Of a stretch of 64,000 bases of DNA, positions 6,125 to 40,705 are shown piece after piece. A model generated the notes under the pieces. That model was not told the DNA's origin and made no database searches. It saw only the letters and a program-made list of their open reading frames with translations. The stretch's first letter is position 1. Every line of letters begins with the position of its first letter. The stretch comes from Candidatus Koribacter versatilis Ellin345 (GTDB taxonomy: Bacteria > Acidobacteriota > Terriglobia > Terriglobales > Acidobacteriaceae), in the NCBI RefSeq assembly GCF_000014005.1, contig NC_008009.1, positions 2,728,001 to 2,792,000 of the forward strand, in the 5' to 3' direction. Position numbers and translations under genes: made by a program.

Positions 6125-8251
6125 TTGAAACGATTCAATACTGCCGTTGTTCTCCTATCCCTGTCCTTGGCAACAACTACTGCTTTCGCGCAACCTGCTG
6201 TCGGCACTATTCGCGTGGATACCAATCCTCAACACATTTTGAACTCTTTCGATCCCGACCAGGCCCTCGGCAGCTCCGTGGACGTCCTTTCGCACTACGA
6301 CATTGAGAAGGTGTACTCGCCGCACATTCTCCAGGAATCGCTCTCCGCTGGATGGGGGCCGATCACCTATCGAAATAACAGCGAGTTGCGCATGGCCTAT
6401 TTGCACTGGAACGCTGAAGGGACCTGGAGCGACCCAACACATCGCAGCGGATACTTCATCGGCAGCACCGAGCTCAAAAAGCCAATTCGCTACAGTCTTT
6501 CCTATGGTCTTCCCCATCGAGGCTTTGCCACCAGCGGGGATCGCCCAATCGAAAGCCCGAACCTTACCTACTGGAAAAGCAACCCCTATTTGACCAGCAA
6601 ATTCACCGGCGAGAGCGACGCGCTCCATCCGCAATGGGTCGTGGTGGATTTGCAATCCGAAAAATCGGTGAACGCCGTTCGCATCCAGTGGGCCGAACCC
6701 TACGCAGCTACCTACACCGTCGATTACTGGGTTGGCAAAGAACCTCTGGAGTGGGACGGTGGCCCCAAAGGCGAGTGGAAAACCTTCGCATCGGGCGAAC
6801 TGAAGCACGCAAAAGGTGGCACCGCGACGTTGAAACTCGCCGCTGCCCCAGTCTCCACCCGTTACGTCCGAGTTTGGATGACCGAGTCTTCCAACACCTG
6901 CGACGAGCACGGCGCGGAAGACTCGCGCAACTGCGCCGGATATGCCATCCAATCGATTCAAGCCGGCAGCCTCGATAAGCCCGGCCATTTCGTCGAAGCA
7001 CCTCGTGCGGCTTCCGACAAAGAGATCACTTATACCGCTTCCTCCATCGATCCCTGGCACTCCTCCGAAGACGTAAAGGACGACGGCTTTTACCAGCACA
7101 CCGGCTTTGACCTGTTCTTCACCAGTGGGATCACCAACGGCTTGCCCGCGACGATTCCTGTCACCATGCTCTACGGCACGCCGGAAGACGCCGCGGCACA
7201 AATCGCTTATATCCAGAAACGAGGCTATTCCATCGGCTACGTCGAACTCGGCGAAGAGCCTGACGGCAAGCACGCCATGCCGGAGGACTATGCGGCCCTT
7301 TACATCCAGTGGGCGAAGGCCCTGCACCAGGTTGACTCGAAGTTAAAGCTCGGCGGCCCGATCTTCGAGGGCGTCAACAAGGACATCACTCTATGGCCCG
7401 ACGCCAAGGGCCGCATCTCTTGGATGGGGCGCTTCGTCGCTTACCTCAAAGACCACGGCCATCTCGACGATCTCGCCTTCGTATCGTTCGAACACTATCC
7501 GTTCGAGCCCTGCGAGATCACTTGGAAGTCGCTCTACGAAGAGCCGCAGTTGATGAAAGGAATTCTGAAAACCTGGCGTGATGACGGCGTGCCGGCCAAC
7601 GTTCCGCTCATGGTGACCGAGAACCATCTCGCCGCGCAGCTTACCGGACCCATGACGACGATCTTCGCAGCACTCTGGCTCTCCGACAACGTGGGCTCTT
7701 TCTTCGAAGGCGGCGGAGCGGTCTTCCATCACTCGCCTATCCAGCCGCAGGACATCCATGAAACCTGTCTCGGCTGGGCGTCGTGGTCGAACTTCGTCGC
7801 CGACGAGCGCTACAACATCAAGGGCTATACCTCGCCCTGGTTTGCCGCACGCATGATCAATATCGAGTGGGTGCAGCATCGCTCCGGCGTGCACCAGATG
7901 TTCCCCTCGTCTTCCGACATTAAGGATGCGCAAGGTAACACTCTCGTCACCACATACGCCGTGCATCGTCCCGACGGCAACTGGTCGCTCATGCTCGTCA
8001 ATCGCGACGAGAACACCCCGCACGATGTGAAGATCAACTTCGACGGCGATGCCGGCTCGCATTTTGAAGGACCGACCACGTTCGTCACCTTCGGCAGCGA
8101 ACAATATGTCTGGATCAACGACGGCCCGAATAGCCACGCCAATCCTGACGGCCCGGCGGTTACGCGCATCCTTGCTGCCGACGGACAATCCGTCTTCACA
8201 CTGCCGAAAGCTTCGGTCACGGTGATTCGCGGCCACATCGCCGCGAAGTAA
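6125..8251 (+). CDS. secreted glycosidase-like protein with a discoidin domain
   Basis: I place the start at TTG 6125, where GAGG sits 7 nt upstream and a good signal peptide follows at once (ending TTTAFAQ). The mature protein is about 685 residues. A discoidin/F5-8C-like module lies near residues 175-290 (PQWVVVDLQSEKSVNAVRI). The C-terminal half looks like a (beta/alpha)8 glycosidase of the clan GH-A type, with a candidate acid/base Glu in YVELGEEPDG and a candidate nucleophile Glu in MVTENHLA. The exact GH family is not recognised. A role in plant or fungal polysaccharide breakdown is inferred. Confidence 0.75.
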   Translation: MKRFNTAVVLLSLSLATTTAFAQPAVGTIRVDTNPQHILNSFDPDQALGSSVDVLSHYDIEKVYSPHILQESLSAGWGPITYRNNSELRMAYLHWNAEGTWSDPTHRSGYFIGSTELKKPIRYSLSYGLPHRGFATSGDRPIESPNLTYWKSNPYLTSKFTGESDALHPQWVVVDLQSEKSVNAVRIQWAEPYAATYTVDYWVGKEPLEWDGGPKGEWKTFASGELKHAKGGTATLKLAAAPVSTRYVRVWMTESSNTCDEHGAEDSRNCAGYAIQSIQAGSLDKPGHFVEAPRAASDKEITYTASSIDPWHSSEDVKDDGFYQHTGFDLFFTSGITNGLPATIPVTMLYGTPEDAAAQIAYIQKRGYSIGYVELGEEPDGKHAMPEDYAALYIQWAKALHQVDSKLKLGGPIFEGVNKDITLWPDAKGRISWMGRFVAYLKDHGHLDDLAFVSFEHYPFEPCEITWKSLYEEPQLMKGILKTWRDDGVPANVPLMVTENHLAAQLTGPMTTIFAALWLSDNVGSFFEGGGAVFHHSPIQPQDIHETCLGWASWSNFVADERYNIKGYTSPWFAARMINIEWVQHRSGVHQMFPSSSDIKDAQGNTLVTTYAVHRPDGNWSLMLVNRDENTPHDVKINFDGDAGSHFEGPTTFVTFGSEQYVWINDGPNSHANPDGPAVTRILAADGQSVFTLPKASVTVIRGHIAAK

Positions 8252-20764: not shown

Positions 20765-22270
20765 ATGCCTTTGAAGACACTGTTTCTGAATCCGCCATCG
20801 TTTGAGAATTACGACGGAGGCGCCAGTTCGCGCTGGCCAGCCACCCGTGAGATCGAGTCCTACTGGTATCCGGTATGGCTCGCGTATCCCGCTGGGATGC
20901 TGGAGGGGTCGCGGTTGCTCGATGCACCGCCGCACCACGTGTCGTTCGACGAGACGATCCAGATCAGCAAGGACTACGACTTCGTAGTGCTGTTCACCAG
21001 CACTCCCGGCTTCCCGGGCGACCTGAAGATCGCCAAGGCGATGAAGACCGCGAACCCGAATGTAAAGATTGCGTTCGTCGGGCCGCATGTGACGACCCTG
21101 CCGGAGCGTTCCCTGGCGGAGGGTCCGGAGATTGATTTCATCGTCCGCCGCGAGTTCGACTACGCGGTAGTGGAGTATGCCAACGGCAAGCCGCTGAACG
21201 AGATTACCGGTGTCAGTTATCGCGGCGCGGATGGCAAGGTCGTGCACAATCCCGACCGGCCGCCGGTTTCGAACCTCGACGAGATGCCGGATGTGATCGA
21301 CGTTTACAAGCGCGATCTCGACGTGAAGCGCTACAACGTTCCCTTCCTGCTACATCCGTACATCGCGCTGTACACCACGCGTGGATGCCCAGCGCAATGC
21401 ACGTTCTGCCTGTGGCCGCAGACCCTCAGTGGGCATCCGTGGCGCAAGCGTTCCAGCGATGCGGTAGCGTCGGAGATGAAGCGGGCCATGGAACTCTTCC
21501 CTTGGGTGCGCGAGTTCTTCTTCGACGACGATACCTTCAACATCCAGAAGGCACGCACCATCGAGCTTTGCGAAAAGCTGAAGCCGCTGGGGATGACCTG
21601 GAGCTGCACCTCGCGCGTGACCACCGACTACGAGACGCTGAAGGCGATGAAGGAAGCCGGATGCCGGCTGCTGATCGTTGGTTACGAATCGGGCGATCCG
21701 CAGATTTTGAAAAACATTAAGAAGGGCGCCACCGTCGAGCGCGCGCGGGCCTTTACCAAGGATTGCCACAAACTCGGCCTGAAGGTGCACGGCGATTTCA
21801 TCCTCGGCCTGCCGGGCGAGACGAAAGAGACGATCCGCCGCACCATGGATTTCGCGAAAGAACTTGACGTCGAGACGATCCAGGTTTCAATCGCGCACGC
21901 GTATCCGGGAACGGAGCTTTACGACTACGCGAAGGCCAATGGCTTCATCGTGCAGGAAGGCGCTGCAATGGTGGACGACCAGGGCCACCAGGTCGCGATG
22001 ATCGAATACCCCGGCCTGCCCCGCGATTACGTGATGGAGATGGTGCACAAGTTCTACGACGAATACTATTTCCGCCCGAAGGCGATCTTCCGCATCGTGC
22101 GCAAGGCTGTATTCAATAATGTGGAGCGCAAGCGTCTCTACAAAGAAGCCAAGGACTTCATGAAGCTGCGCAGCGTACGCAATAAGGCCGTGAAGGTCGC
22201 GCGTGAACAGCAGGCGAAGTCGAACATCAATCCGAAAAAGAATGAGCCGGCAGAGCCGGTGAATGTGTAG
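20765..22270 (+). CDS. hpnJ: hopanoid-associated B12-binding radical SAM protein HpnJ
   Basis: 501 residues. The N-terminus is the characteristic MPLKTLFLNPPSFENYDGG of HpnJ, followed by a cobalamin-binding-like Rossmann domain (about 45-140) and a radical SAM barrel. Cys208, Cys212 and Cys215 form CX3CX2C (RGCPAQCTFC). Other hallmarks are REFFFDDDTF, VGYESGDPQIL and KVHGDFILGLPGET. HpnJ has been linked genetically to the ring contraction that makes bacteriohopanetetrol cyclitol ether side chains. Its usual partners HpnI and HpnK are not in the window. Confidence 0.92.
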   Translation: MPLKTLFLNPPSFENYDGGASSRWPATREIESYWYPVWLAYPAGMLEGSRLLDAPPHHVSFDETIQISKDYDFVVLFTSTPGFPGDLKIAKAMKTANPNVKIAFVGPHVTTLPERSLAEGPEIDFIVRREFDYAVVEYANGKPLNEITGVSYRGADGKVVHNPDRPPVSNLDEMPDVIDVYKRDLDVKRYNVPFLLHPYIALYTTRGCPAQCTFCLWPQTLSGHPWRKRSSDAVASEMKRAMELFPWVREFFFDDDTFNIQKARTIELCEKLKPLGMTWSCTSRVTTDYETLKAMKEAGCRLLIVGYESGDPQILKNIKKGATVERARAFTKDCHKLGLKVHGDFILGLPGETKETIRRTMDFAKELDVETIQVSIAHAYPGTELYDYAKANGFIVQEGAAMVDDQGHQVAMIEYPGLPRDYVMEMVHKFYDEYYFRPKAIFRIVRKAVFNNVERKRLYKEAKDFMKLRSVRNKAVKVAREQQAKSNINPKKNEPAEPVNV

Positions 22271-23299: not shown

Positions 23300-24871
23300 T
23301 TGTCTCTCGAACCCAACCAGACATCCCGGCGTGTCTTGTGCGTCTTTCCTCGTTACGAGAAATCGTTCGGCACGTTTGATAATGCCTATCCGCTGCTTGG
23401 CGTGAAGGCGTTTATGCCGCCGCAGGGGATGCTGGTGATCGCGGCCTATTTGCCAAAGCGCTGGCAGGTGCGCTTCGTGGATGAAAACGTGAAGCCCGCG
23501 TCAGATGCGGATTATCGCTGGGCCGACGTGGTGATGACCAGCGGCATGCACATCCAGCGCAACCAGATCAACGCCATCAACCGGCGCGCGCATTCATTTG
23601 GGAAAGTGACGGTGATCGGTGGGCCGTCTGTTTCAGGATGCCCAGAGCATTATCCGGAGTTTGACTATTTGCACGTTGGAGAATTGGGCGATGCGACGGA
23701 CACGCTCATTCAGTTGCTGGAGGTTTCCGTCGCGCGACCGCATGAGCAGGTAAGGTTCGAGACGAAGGAACGGTTGCCGCTGGCCGACTTCCCTACTCCT
23801 GCATACGACATGGCGGCAATGGACAAGTACTTCCTCGCGAATGTGCAGTTCTCCAGCGGGTGCCCCTATCGGTGCGAGTTCTGCGATATTCCCGAGCTCT
23901 ATGGGCGGAATCCGCGATTGAAGACGCCGCAGCAGATATTGAAAGAGCTGGACGCGATCGTGGCGGGTGGCGCGATCGGCGCGGTGTACTTCGTGGACGA
24001 CAACTTCGTCGGGAACCGCAAGGCCGCGCTGGAACTGCTGCCGCATCTCGTAGAGTGGCAGAAGAAGAACAACTACCCCGTGGAGTTCGCTTGCGAAGCG
24101 ACGTTAAATATCGTGAAGTCCCCGGATTTGCTGGCGCTGATGCGCGAGGCAGACTTCTGGACGATCTTTGTCGGCATTGAGACGCCGGACCCGGCGGCTC
24201 TGAAATTGATCTCGAAAGACCACAACAATACCGTGCCGGTGCTTGAGGCGATCCAGACGCTGAACAGCTTTGGGATCGAAGTGGTGAGTGGGATCATCAT
24301 GGGCCTCGATAGCGACACGGTTGAGACCGGCGAGCGGATTTTGAAATTCGTCGCGGAATCGCAAATCCCGGTGCTGACGATTAACCTGCTCGAGGCGCTG
24401 CCGAGGACCCCGTTGTATCGGCGATTGCAGGCTGCCGGAAGATTGAACGACGCGCCCGGACGCGAGTCCAATGTGGAATTCGTACTGCCCTACGACCAGG
24501 TAGTCGCGATGTGGCGCAAGACCTTCCAAAACGCGTTTACGCCGGAGGCCATCTACGAGCGGTTTTCGTACCAGCAGAAGAATACGTATCCCCATCGCGT
24601 GCAGCCGCCGCCGAGCGGGAAAGCGAACTTGCGCAACATGCTTCGCGGATTTACAACGTTGGCGAAGCTGATGTGGATCGTCGGCGTGAAGAGCGATTAC
24701 CGCCGAGTGTTCTGGAAGATGGCGCGTCCCGCGCTACGTGAGCTGGATATTGAAGATATTATTCACGTGAGCCTGGTGTCGCATCATTTAATCAGCTTTG
24801 CGCGCGAAGCGGCGCGAGGCGCGCAGAATGCGGCGTTCTATTCGCCGGAGTTGAAGGCGCAGACGGCGTAG
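23300..24871 (+). CDS. hpnP: hopanoid C-2 methylase HpnP (B12-binding radical SAM)
   Basis: 523 residues. HpnP adds a methyl group to C-2 of the hopanoid A ring using SAM and cobalamin. The N-terminal signature is well kept (VLCVFPRYEKSFGTFDNAY, then KAFMPPQGMLVIAAYLP and VRFVDEN). A B12-binding domain with GGPSVSGCPEHYPEFDYLHVGE cut by natural breaks follows. The radical SAM cluster is Cys188-X3-Cys192-X2-Cys195 in SGCPYRCEFCDIPELYGR. FVGIETPDPAALKLISKDHN and the C-terminal DUF4070-like region complete the family picture. The start is TTG. A methyltransferase gene follows after 2 bp. HpnP makes the 2-methylhopanoids used as geological biomarkers. Confidence 0.9.
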   Translation: MSLEPNQTSRRVLCVFPRYEKSFGTFDNAYPLLGVKAFMPPQGMLVIAAYLPKRWQVRFVDENVKPASDADYRWADVVMTSGMHIQRNQINAINRRAHSFGKVTVIGGPSVSGCPEHYPEFDYLHVGELGDATDTLIQLLEVSVARPHEQVRFETKERLPLADFPTPAYDMAAMDKYFLANVQFSSGCPYRCEFCDIPELYGRNPRLKTPQQILKELDAIVAGGAIGAVYFVDDNFVGNRKAALELLPHLVEWQKKNNYPVEFACEATLNIVKSPDLLALMREADFWTIFVGIETPDPAALKLISKDHNNTVPVLEAIQTLNSFGIEVVSGIIMGLDSDTVETGERILKFVAESQIPVLTINLLEALPRTPLYRRLQAAGRLNDAPGRESNVEFVLPYDQVVAMWRKTFQNAFTPEAIYERFSYQQKNTYPHRVQPPPSGKANLRNMLRGFTTLAKLMWIVGVKSDYRRVFWKMARPALRELDIEDIIHVSLVSHHLISFAREAARGAQNAAFYSPELKAQTA

Positions 24872-38665: not shown

Positions 38666-38772
38666 GTGCGACGCGTATGGCGCTGTGCGGCGCAACGCGA
38701 CCCCTAAGTGCACCCTTCTGTTATTCGCCCAGGAAATCAGCAGTTACAAATCTCATTTTTGGAGGAACACAC

Positions 38773-38979
38773 ATGGCAAACCTTGACTCGGACCTCTTGT
38801 TCCATCGCAATTGGTGGTGGGATCCGATCGACATGGAGATTTTCAAAATCCTCGATCAATCAGCCCAGCGGCAATTGGTCGCCATCAGCCTGGAAGTAAA
38901 AGCAGAAGTCTTGAAGGTTCAGGCGGCAGGCGTGGCGAAGATGGCCGGCGCCATAGCAGGAAAAACAGCAGGACATTGA
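38773..38979 (+). CDS. 68-residue peptide, candidate radical-SAM-modified precursor
   Basis: A strong GGAGG 7 nt upstream fixes the ATG at 38773. The peptide begins MANLDSDLLFHRNWWWDPID, with a striking Trp triplet at residues 14-16 and no Cys. It continues as an amphipathic Lys/Glu/Gln helix (about 22-50) and ends with small residues (AGVAKMAGAIAGKTAGH). There is no signal peptide or membrane segment. It has its own terminator and is followed 64 bp later by a B12-binding radical SAM gene, the layout of many RiPP precursor genes. Precursor function is inferred. It may also be a small regulatory protein. Confidence 0.6.
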   Translation: MANLDSDLLFHRNWWWDPIDMEIFKILDQSAQRQLVAISLEVKAEVLKVQAAGVAKMAGAIAGKTAGH

Positions 38980-38982
38980 ACG

Positions 38983-39017
38983 AGCCCGGTGCTGCGCGAG
39001 TGGCACCGGCTTTTTTT
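38983..39017 (+). terminator. terminator between the peptide gene and the radical SAM gene
   Basis: AGCC(C)GGTGC (38983-38992, one bulged C) pairs with GCACCGGCT (39003-39011), then seven T (39011-39017). Partial read-through would give more peptide than enzyme mRNA. Confidence 0.85.
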
Positions 39018-39043
39018 CAATCTTGATTTCATGAAGGATTCGT

Positions 39044-40705
39044 ATGCCTGATAGCGCCGGAATTCTGCCGTTGCCACTCTTCTCGTCTTCATTGAAGCGA
39101 GACACGAGCCGTCCTGTGATGTTGATTGGCTTCCAGCACCAGGGAAACCTGGGCTTAGGCTACCTCGCGTCAACCCTGCGCGAGCACGGCTATAGCGTAC
39201 TGACCTGCGACTTCGAGGCAGAGACGAGCGAGATCATCGAGTCGGCGCGGCAGAGCAAGCCGATGATTGTTGGCTTTTCCCTCATATTTCAGTTCTATAT
39301 TCGCAAGTTCGACGCTCTAATGCAGGCGTTGCGCGCGGCCGGCGTCGATTGCCACTTCACCATCGGCGGACACTTCCCCAGCTTGAGTCACGAGGAGACG
39401 CTGCGCATGTTGCCGGAACTGGACAGCGTAGTGCGCTTCGAGGGCGAGATGACGCTGCTGGAACTCGCCGACGTGATTGGCACAGGACGCGACTGGCATG
39501 ACCTCCAGGGAATTGCCTATCGCGGAACGACCGGTGTTGTCACCAACCCGATGCGTTCGTTAGTGGATGATCTCGATTCCCTCCCCTATCCCGAACGAAA
39601 CTTTGAGCCGGAGAAAGCGCTGGGACGCAAAGCCCTGCCGCTGCTGGCCAGCCGCGGATGTGCCCGTACTTGCTCCTTCTGCTCCATCCAGACGTTCTAC
39701 CGCACCGCGCCAGGAAAGATCGTCCGCACGCGCAAGCCGGCGAAAGTGATCGAAGAAATGCAAGCGATGCACGAAGAGCGCGGCATCTCCATCTTCCTCT
39801 TCCAGGATGACGACTTCCCTCTTTTCGGACCGGTGTGGCGGCGCTGGGCTTACGACTTCGTAGATTGCATGCACCGCAGTGGTCTCGCGCAGCGCGTAAT
39901 CTGGAAGATCAACTGCCGTGCCGATGCCGTAGAACCCGAGATCTTCACCGCGATGCGCGACGCAGGCCTGTACCTGGTCTACATGGGGCTTGAGTCCGGC
40001 AACGAAGAAGGACTGAAGACACTGCACAAGCAAGTGTCGGTGGAGCAAAACATCCGCGCCGTCGAAATGCTCAAGCAGGTCGGCCTGCTCTTCGAGTTCG
40101 GCTTCATGATGTTCGATCCGGGCAGCACCTTGGAGTCGATCAAGCAGAACCTGCGTTTCCTGCGCACGATCTTGAACGACGGCTGCGCCGCCGCAGTCTT
40201 CTGTCGCATGCTTCCCTACGACGGCACACCGATCAAGGACGAACTGGAACGCGCTGGCCGGCTGCTTGGAGATGTCTGCGCACCATCGTATGACTTCCTC
40301 GATCCGAGAGTTTCAAAGATGTATAACTCGCTGTCGCAGATCGTGGATGTCTGGGGATGGATCCATGGGTATCGAGCACTCTCGCCGCAATTGAACTGGG
40401 CTTGGAACGAGGTCGCCATCATGGAGCGGCTGTATCCGGGAATCGACGGGCTGGAAGAGTATCGACGGAGGCTCGCTGCAGTTACGAAGAAGAGTAACGA
40501 TGTCCTCTTCTCGGTGATGGACAACCTGCTCGAAGTGGCAGAATTCGATGCCGCCGAGCGCTGGGACAACGCGCGCCTTGACGCTCTACGAAGAGAGTTC
40601 CTGGAAGAACTGCTGCGCGAGCGCGATGCGTTCGTGGAGCACAACCAGTCGACAATGTTGCGTGTGCTACGAGCGCAACCAGTGCAAGAGGCGGCGTCAG
40701 CTTAA
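39044..40705 (+). CDS. B12-binding-domain radical SAM protein
   Basis: 553 residues. An N-terminal cobalamin-binding-like Rossmann domain (about 25-130, with GLGYLASTLREHGYSVLTCD and FTIGGHFPSLSHEE) is followed by a radical SAM barrel. The cluster ligands are Cys206, Cys210 and Cys213 (RGCARTCSFC). FLFQDDDFPLFG and YMGLESGNEEGL complete the core. A helical C-terminal region of about 130 residues is unassigned. The start has AAGGA about 6 nt upstream. B12-radical SAM enzymes methylate or rearrange unactivated carbons. The substrate is not known; the upstream peptide is the best local candidate. Confidence 0.88.
   Translation: MPDSAGILPLPLFSSSLKRDTSRPVMLIGFQHQGNLGLGYLASTLREHGYSVLTCDFEAETSEIIESARQSKPMIVGFSLIFQFYIRKFDALMQALRAAGVDCHFTIGGHFPSLSHEETLRMLPELDSVVRFEGEMTLLELADVIGTGRDWHDLQGIAYRGTTGVVTNPMRSLVDDLDSLPYPERNFEPEKALGRKALPLLASRGCARTCSFCSIQTFYRTAPGKIVRTRKPAKVIEEMQAMHEERGISIFLFQDDDFPLFGPVWRRWAYDFVDCMHRSGLAQRVIWKINCRADAVEPEIFTAMRDAGLYLVYMGLESGNEEGLKTLHKQVSVEQNIRAVEMLKQVGLLFEFGFMMFDPGSTLESIKQNLRFLRTILNDGCAAAVFCRMLPYDGTPIKDELERAGRLLGDVCAPSYDFLDPRVSKMYNSLSQIVDVWGWIHGYRALSPQLNWAWNEVAIMERLYPGIDGLEEYRRRLAAVTKKSNDVLFSVMDNLLEVAEFDAAERWDNARLDALRREFLEELLRERDAFVEHNQSTMLRVLRAQPVQEAASA

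Follow-up and report, generated by a model that had tools for sequence, protein, structure and literature searches.

The DNA analysed here (the window) is a stretch of 64,000 nucleotides, positions 2,728,001–2,792,000 of the single-contig 5.65 Mb genome of Candidatus Koribacter versatilis Ellin345. It carries a short gene for a 68-residue peptide followed by the gene of a B12-binding radical S-adenosylmethionine (SAM) enzyme. An earlier reading of the bare sequence (the sequence-only reading) took the two for a possible system of the ribosomally synthesized and post-translationally modified peptide (RiPP) type. We found that the genes recur side by side in organisms assigned to ten phyla, and the enzyme probably acts on the small protein. 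The features of the locus are the following:

38761–38765, forward strand: Shine-Dalgarno sequence GGAGG of the peptide gene, read from the sequence, seven bases before the start
38773–38979, forward strand: gene of the 68-residue peptide, the putative substrate (open reading frame, relatives, purifying selection)
38812–38826, forward strand: WWWDP motif, residues 14–18, with D17 and P18 as the most conserved columns of the family
38857–38970, forward strand: predicted long C-terminal helix of the peptide, residues 29–66 (AlphaFold2 model), with a presumed recognition role
38986–39017, forward strand: intrinsic terminator between the two genes, stem 38986–39009 and T tract 39011–39017 (folding; not conserved in relatives)
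39044–40705, forward strand: gene of the B12-binding radical SAM enzyme, 553 amino acids (domain matches, alignment, model)
39146–39466, forward strand: B12-binding domain, residues 35–141 (Pfam PF02310)
39650–40162, forward strand: Radical_SAM domain, residues 203–373 (Pfam PF04055)
39659–39682, forward strand: CxxxCxxC cluster motif, Cys206/210/213 (alignment)
40304–40699, forward strand: C-terminal helical part of the enzyme, residues 421–552 (AlphaFold2 model), candidate binding site of the peptide helix

The peptide gene runs from an ATG at 38773 to a stop codon at 38977–38979 and codes for no cysteine, and its length, the WWWDP motif at residues 14–18 and the GGAGG site seven bases upstream agree with the sequence-only reading. 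An alternative in-frame ATG at 38677 would give 100 residues; the shorter start is preferred because homology to relatives begins at 38773 and not at 38677. Purine-rich sites like GGAGG precede the peptide open reading frames (ORFs) of most relatives outside Bacteroidota. The peptide has no match in Pfam or NCBIfam at an expectation value (E) ≤1, and its second match in the own genome (E 0.41) was rejected, as it sits within an unrelated ORF. In the AlphaFold2 model, built from 40 sequences with a mean predicted local distance difference test (pLDDT) score of 80, residues 1–20 show no regular structure (block confidences 58 and 67) and residues 29–66 form a helix, with confidence of 94–96 at residues 41–60. 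The description of the tail as Ala/Gly-rich has to be abandoned: it is mostly this predicted helix, and the tails of relatives are not Ala/Gly-rich as a rule.

Pairing of the two genes was examined among 100 genomes (the own one, G000, and 99 relatives), where the peptide is matched at E≤0.01 in three (G000, G040, and G091) and the enzyme at E≤1e-60 in the identical three. The peptide ORF of both G040 and G091 immediately precedes the enzyme gene; their peptides are 54% and 26% identical to that of the window, their enzymes 70% and 64%, and W15, W16, D17, and P18 are retained in all three peptides. Neither peptide nor enzyme was found in G001, the one other genome of the same genus. A wide scan of 84,980 species genomes with two enzyme patterns taken from these three enzymes, FQDDDFP and [IV]GFQ[HR]QGN, which misses family members lacking them, yielded 72 loci, or 73 with the window (handles beginning with L). 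A seed profile of 22 upstream ORFs, picked by a loose W-DP pattern, matches 38 of the 73 loci at E≤0.01, including 16 outside the seed, all directly upstream of the enzyme and one of them the broken frame of L104; up to E 5 it gave a single match elsewhere (E 1.6). When upstream peptides were read by ORF, start and shape, a same-strand ORF of 59–95 residues was found directly upstream of the enzyme in 66/73 loci, although in L054, L055, and L076 the start is uncertain and may lie five residues earlier. L067 and L102 begin at a contig end and keep no upstream sequence, L108 and L109 (30% and 25% identity) fall outside the enzyme family, and in L104 a homologous upstream peptide has a broken frame. 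An intact peptide ORF is therefore present in 66 of the 69 testable family loci, i.e., those with a family enzyme and upstream sequence kept. The expectation that the peptide should accompany orthologous radical SAM genes has thus withstood the check, and together with the shared occurrence in three of 100 genomes this strongly supports a tie between the peptide and this enzyme subfamily. G040/L039 and G091/L040 are apparently the same assemblies and the G383 peptide is the L086 peptide, so that these are not independent.

In 297 Acidobacteriota genomes, the peptide profile (E≤0.01, at most 19 candidates scored per genome) matched 15 genomes. Two of the matches are small proteins (G000, G383), both beside the enzyme; the other 13 lie within long genes, named by eye as ten with an aldehyde-dehydrogenase-like start, two ClpB-like and one glycogen phosphorylase-like. 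With the enzyme profile (E≤1e-70, at most four candidates scored per genome) four genomes were recovered: G000, G383, G354, and G104. The upstream peptide of G354, which has ADPGPD and was read by eye, was missed by the peptide profile, and silence of that profile elsewhere is therefore no proof of absence. The G104 enzyme branches outside the family, and no peptide is evident in 900 bases. No relatives were seen among 191 pattern matches in the viral collection, and 124 plasmid records gave distant matches, all below 60% identity and none covering 80% of the query. We found no description of this pair in the open-access literature, which is weak evidence of absence because subscription journals were mostly outside that search.

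As the sequence-only reading had stated, the downstream gene encodes a B12-binding radical SAM protein with Cys206, Cys210, and Cys213. The enzyme matches PF02310 (68.1 bits, cut-off 32.1, E 8e-19) and PF04055 (65.3 bits, cut-off 29.5, E 1e-17) and has the hallmarks of cobalamin-dependent radical SAM enzymes, namely the fused domains, the CxxxCxxC motif for the [4Fe-4S] cluster, and the overall fold. In the alignment of 66 family enzymes 50 columns are invariant, including the three cysteines (66/66). FQDDDFP does not vary across these rows either, which is partly forced because the scan searched for it; in G354, recovered by profile, the sequence is FQDDDWF. L067, L092, L102, L104, and L107 were left out of the alignment and tree and counted as family members by identity; in L092 the frame is unresolved at the start of the enzyme, near 8001, and a short frame was found. 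The enzymes form one clade: in a tree with eight paralogues from the own genome and other outgroups, rooted at the midpoint and with several long outgroup branches, the 66 members lie on one side of a branch with support 96/82, or 95/83 when G354 is included. Their organism labels span Acidobacteriota, Pseudomonadota, Nitrospirota, Thermodesulfobacteriota, Myxococcota, Ignavibacteriota, Bacteroidota, Chloroflexota, Bacillota, and Bathyarchaeota, the archaeal representation of the pair being one assembly. Single members could carry a wrong taxon because most are metagenome assemblies; named strains include Desulfosediminicola flagellatus IMCC35005 and Limobrevibacterium gyesilva RN2-1. The AlphaFold2 model of the window enzyme (pLDDT 92) enters the B12 domain at residue 25 and has an entirely helical C-terminal part. 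Its best structural match is OxsB (5ul4, Z 33.0, 473 residues, root-mean-square deviation (rmsd) 4.7), followed by MgmA, AprD4, CysS, and TsrM (Z 27.9). All 66 family enzymes match the BchE, ApyD, HpnJ, PhpK, and HpnR models at E≤1e-10, and among the best 25 of the 33 NCBIfam models matched by the window enzyme none reaches its cut-off.

The window contains a second B12 radical SAM gene (20765–22270), a clear HpnJ hopanoid-biosynthesis gene, whose product served as a control and scores 833.2 bits against its own cut-off of 577.6. A third radical-SAM-like gene (23300–24871) is weakly related to the enzyme (E 2.6e-8) and has no NCBIfam match at E≤1e-20. Elsewhere in the own genome (G000:C1:1089243-1098044; L024–L026, L028, and L031) five relatives of the enzyme are clustered on one strand; the two that were scanned match B12 radical SAM models and reach no curated cut-off among the matches listed.

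Alignment column counts were made from 45 peptides outside Bacteroidota; alignment A3 left out 26 of the 66 (all 21 from Bacteroidota, as well as L049, L051, L063, L065, and L081). The D17 column holds 4.17 bits (D in 44/45) and the P18 column 3.75 bits (P in 41/45), the next counted column reaching 2.63. The consensus reads L-x-F-x-P-x-W-x-x-D-P-V-P; in the window the segment is F-H-R-N-W-W-W-D-P, in which R replaces the first P of the consensus. D-P is present in 42/45 of these peptides (shuffles, 18 at most), and 35/45 have a W no more than four residues ahead of D-P (200 shuffles, four at most). In the tail, columns keep their hydrophobicity while the letters drift. Lack of cysteine holds for 43/45 peptides outside Bacteroidota, and cysteine is present in 18/21 from Bacteroidota. 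Synonymous change exceeds nonsynonymous change in all of 17 pairs which, like the motif patterns, were chosen after looking at the data; apart from one saturated pair, the nonsynonymous to synonymous rate ratios (dN/dS) are 0.06–0.69 (16 pairs). In seven held-out runs, in which a profile trained without one group was searched in that group (L104 being subtracted where it was an extra match), we recovered 4/4 Nitrospira peptides, 12/14 of an alphaproteobacterial group at E≤0.01 and 13/14 at E≤1 (for two records the label is just Proteobacteria), 17/20 from Acidobacteriota at E≤0.01 (19 plus L104), and 5/8 of a mixed group of others at E≤0.01 and 7/8 at E≤1. None of the seven runs gave a match elsewhere at E≤1. 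Searched with Pfam and NCBIfam models, 40 peptides gave eight models matching one peptide each (best E 0.0011), which we take as chance; in NCBIfam three peptides matched one model each (E 0.03–0.09), none of them a precursor family. The peptide family is thus without a convincing Pfam or NCBIfam model, and peptide and enzyme together make up a coherent family without a convincing library model.

Two unusual arrangements were noted among the peptides. In L096 (L096:7500-7976) a single enzyme is preceded by two peptides in tandem, which have LPIVWF-x-D in common and differ in their tails. Two Bacteroidales peptides (L088:2267-2503 and L089:4765-4995) carry TCCCCCS, with a run of five cysteines, in the N-terminal part, at the place of the aromatic segment in others.

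We favor, with moderate confidence, the view that the two genes constitute a stand-alone post-translational modification pair, in which the enzyme would hold the helical tail of the small protein and modify its Asp-Pro segment. The small protein would comprise a flexible N-terminal segment (consensus F-x-P-x-W-x-x-D-P) and a helical tail of about 40 residues, and the B12-dependent radical SAM enzyme would bind this tail as a C-terminal recognition or follower helix and alter the segment around the nearly invariant Asp-Pro. We propose this because conservation is highest in the part predicted to be flexible, because the hydrophobic columns of the tail are kept, and because the related enzymes MgmA and ApyD methylate residues of a protein or peptide; the position of the motif in an unstructured, low-confidence stretch before a confident helix likewise fits a modified segment with a recognition part. 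The tandem peptides of L096, alike in LPIVWF-x-D and unlike in their tails, also speak for this view. C-methylation of Asp or of a neighboring aromatic residue (+14 Da) would be the likeliest chemistry and a crosslink (−2 Da) a less likely one. The end product would probably be the whole small protein in its modified form, for the one reason that no conserved protease or exporter lies beside the pair. Outside Bacteroidota the pair stands alone, as clustering of neighboring ORFs of at least 100 amino acids (clusters of four or more loci considered) revealed no recurring third gene beside it. ATP-binding cassette (ABC) ATPases occur in six of these loci with scattered places and strands, members of a tetratricopeptide repeat (TPR) cluster are single and distant or oddly placed (L064, L069), and a same-strand ORF follows within 100 bases downstream in 5/43 loci.

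B12 radical SAM enzymes carry out reactions that are difficult to achieve by other means, and few with peptide substrates are known. A close parallel is aminopyruvatide (ApyD/ApyA, NF050148), where a B12 radical SAM enzyme and a precursor share a cluster. As described in part of PMC10635010, ApyD beta-methylates the Tyr directly before Asp in Gly-Tyr-Leu-Tyr-Asp of its precursor peptide, and this Tyr-Asp resembles the aromatic-Asp found here. However, in the same part of that source ApyD has a RiPP recognition element (RRE), its cluster includes an MNIO, a P450, and a methyltransferase, and the ApyA motif is C-terminal; the window enzyme scores 109.3 bits with the ApyD equivalog model, below the cut-off of 750. 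MgmA (TIGR04014, methyl-coenzyme M reductase glutamine C-methyltransferase) is likewise a B12 radical SAM protein modifier with a similar fold (9ccb, Z 30.0, 371 residues, rmsd 3.2) and, as part of PMC11796369 reports, methylates a Gln of a protein. Its substrate is, in contrast, a large enzyme and not an adjacent small protein, and the window enzyme scores 81.6 bits against a cut-off of 360. The B12 radical SAM enzymes of TIGR03975 (rSAM_ocin_1, RiPP maturation radical SAM C-methyltransferase) are also named for peptide maturation, yet the window enzyme obtains 68.5 bits and does not reach their cut-off of 281.85. BchE (TIGR02026) gives the top NCBIfam score, 127 bits, below its cut-off of 481. 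To our knowledge, OxsB and BchE, both small-molecule B12 radical SAM enzymes, work on other substrates and are not accompanied by an adjacent small protein of such a kind. Pairs of the pyrroloquinoline quinone (PQQ) and mycofactocin type consist of a small conserved precursor with a fixed core motif and a radical SAM enzyme, with an RRE and processing genes, whereas here no RRE or processing genes are conserved beside the pair. Passages of PMC10352776 deal for the most part with clusters of the SPASM type or with LanC/YcaO combinations from Bacteroidales.

Several observations weigh against a modification pair. Outside Bacteroidota no conserved protease or exporter accompanies the two genes, and there is no RRE: no Pfam RRE model matched the enzyme or eight neighboring proteins at E≤1 (Pfam models only). 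Models of small-molecule enzymes (BchE, HpnJ) are among those with the best NCBIfam scores. The enzymes of L100 and L107 come without a recognisable peptide upstream. The WWW-D-P core put forward in the sequence-only reading stands only in its second half: D-P is conserved, and tryptophan is not fixed, being present at the W14, W15, and W16 positions (−3 to −1) in 21, 7, and 17 of the 45 peptides. Peptide and enzyme distances are correlated (Spearman 0.50 over 65 pairs, maximum of 1000 permutations 0.14; outside Bacteroidota 0.58 over 45 pairs, maximum 0.35), which speaks for joint inheritance and not for contact. For Bacteroidota the sequence link to the other peptides is weak. The held-out profile finds 1/21 at E≤0.01 and 8/21 at E≤1, and D-P occurs in 7/21, not above the shuffled maximum of 8. 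The case for these peptides, which were picked by eye by position, start and shape with no rate counted for ORFs in random spacers, is thus built on position, on five close pairs that show purifying selection, and on the motif [WFY]xx[DNEH][PA], found in 13/21 (mean 2.8 and maximum 9 in 200 shuffles).

A further point, the almost constant one-to-one ratio of peptide and enzyme genes, would suit a partner protein made in equal amounts just as well. In this main alternative, the small protein would be a stoichiometric partner (an activator, chaperone, or docking subunit), with Asp-Pro and the helix as a binding surface, and the enzyme would act on a small molecule or another protein. We consider this rather unlikely, albeit deserving serious attention. 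It would account for the close spacing of the genes in several Bacteroidota, where in L087, L093, and L099 they even overlap by four bases, for the helical tail and the lack of a conserved protease or exporter, and for the family-wide resemblance to small-molecule B12 radical SAM enzymes. It sits poorly with the location of the most conserved residues in a part predicted to be flexible, outside the helix, and with L096, where two different peptides precede one enzyme. We also know of no partner protein of such a kind for B12 radical SAM enzymes, which counts against it.

That the pair is a classical RiPP system, in which a protease encoded elsewhere would cleave the modified peptide and a bioactive product would be exported, appears improbable. 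It shares with RiPP systems a short peptide gene beside the enzyme, conserved as a pair, and the gene order, the terminator in the window, the tandem precursors of L096, and an ABC transporter gene a few kb away in some Bacteroidota all point in this direction. Loci outside Bacteroidota have, however, no recurring neighbor besides scattered generic ABC ATPases. The usual RiPP order is leader then core; here the motif comes first and the long helix after, so that the most conserved segment precedes a long tail and there is no C-terminal core. The sequence-only reading had itself remarked that no protease, exporter, or RRE is adjacent; none of them is conserved beside the pair (for protease and exporter, outside Bacteroidota), although genes for removal and export may lie elsewhere in the genome. 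The argument from a leaky terminator fails. The window terminator is real, judged by its 10-pair stem, the seven T that follow, and the folding energy of 38975–39020 (−23.1 kcal/mol against a mean of −12.0 in 200 shuffles, z −4.56), just as had been claimed. It is the sole terminator-like site found in 2.4 kb, a count unremarkable by itself because shuffles of that region average 2.1. As a general feature it is rejected: with a hairpin of −8 kcal/mol or lower before a T tract required, gaps of at least 30 bases tested, enzyme starts in relatives estimated, and ten simple shuffles per gap as controls, terminators were found in 3/43 inter-gene gaps (the window, L039, and L076). As the terminator is not general and RiPP neighbors are absent or unconserved, the RiPP label, taken to mean a product that is cut and exported, is unsupported. 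The label is only partly earned, and modification pair is the better one.

A regulatory role of the ORF, as a Trp-rich attenuator leader acting on the enzyme gene through the terminator, is very improbable. Three Trp codons and the terminator of the window would suit it; selection, however, acts at the protein level, Asp-Pro is conserved rather than Trp, the tail is recognisable across phyla, and most relatives have no terminator that was found. No known riboswitch was seen, since Rfam gave no match at E≤1 in the window between 36000 and 43000 and only two tRNAs in eight loci at the gathering threshold. Chance adjacency of two unrelated genes is already refuted by the recurrence in 66/69 testable loci and by the held-out tests, which gave no off-target match.

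In Bacteroidota the gene context is different, as a gene encoding a TPR-repeat protein lies directly upstream of the pair in 21/23 loci (e.g., L080:5385-7514, L085:5326-7737, and L087:5286-7745). As for the remaining two, L102 has no upstream sequence, and the peptide-less L100 has a TPR-cluster gene about 2 kb upstream. A SiaC-cluster gene was found in six loci and a SpoIIE/SiaA-cluster gene in seven, both named from L085 and L087. Some of the TPR proteins show a TIR-like N-terminus by eye, for which Pfam gave no TIR match at E≤0.001. A defence-system reading was rejected, as PADLOC matches are weak (45 bits for the enzyme and 31 bits for one of five TPR proteins). A match to TIGR04510 (putative peptide modification system cyclase) was also set aside: four of the TPR proteins reach 20–31 bits where the cut-off is 400, which may reflect the TPR repeats alone.

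Going further, we tentatively suggest that the pair may represent a two-gene module, undescribed in the papers searched and distributed over ten phyla, including one archaeal assembly, in which the Asp-Pro segment would be altered and the small helical protein used uncut as a working protein and not as a natural product. In Bacteroidota this module would have been recruited to the side of a TPR protein, joined in some loci by a SiaABC-like switch. With its conservation and its sharply defined motif, the enzyme-peptide pair offers a ready test case, also in the named strains, and should the small protein in modified form be the end product, the pair would represent a post-translational modification system operating across very distant lineages.

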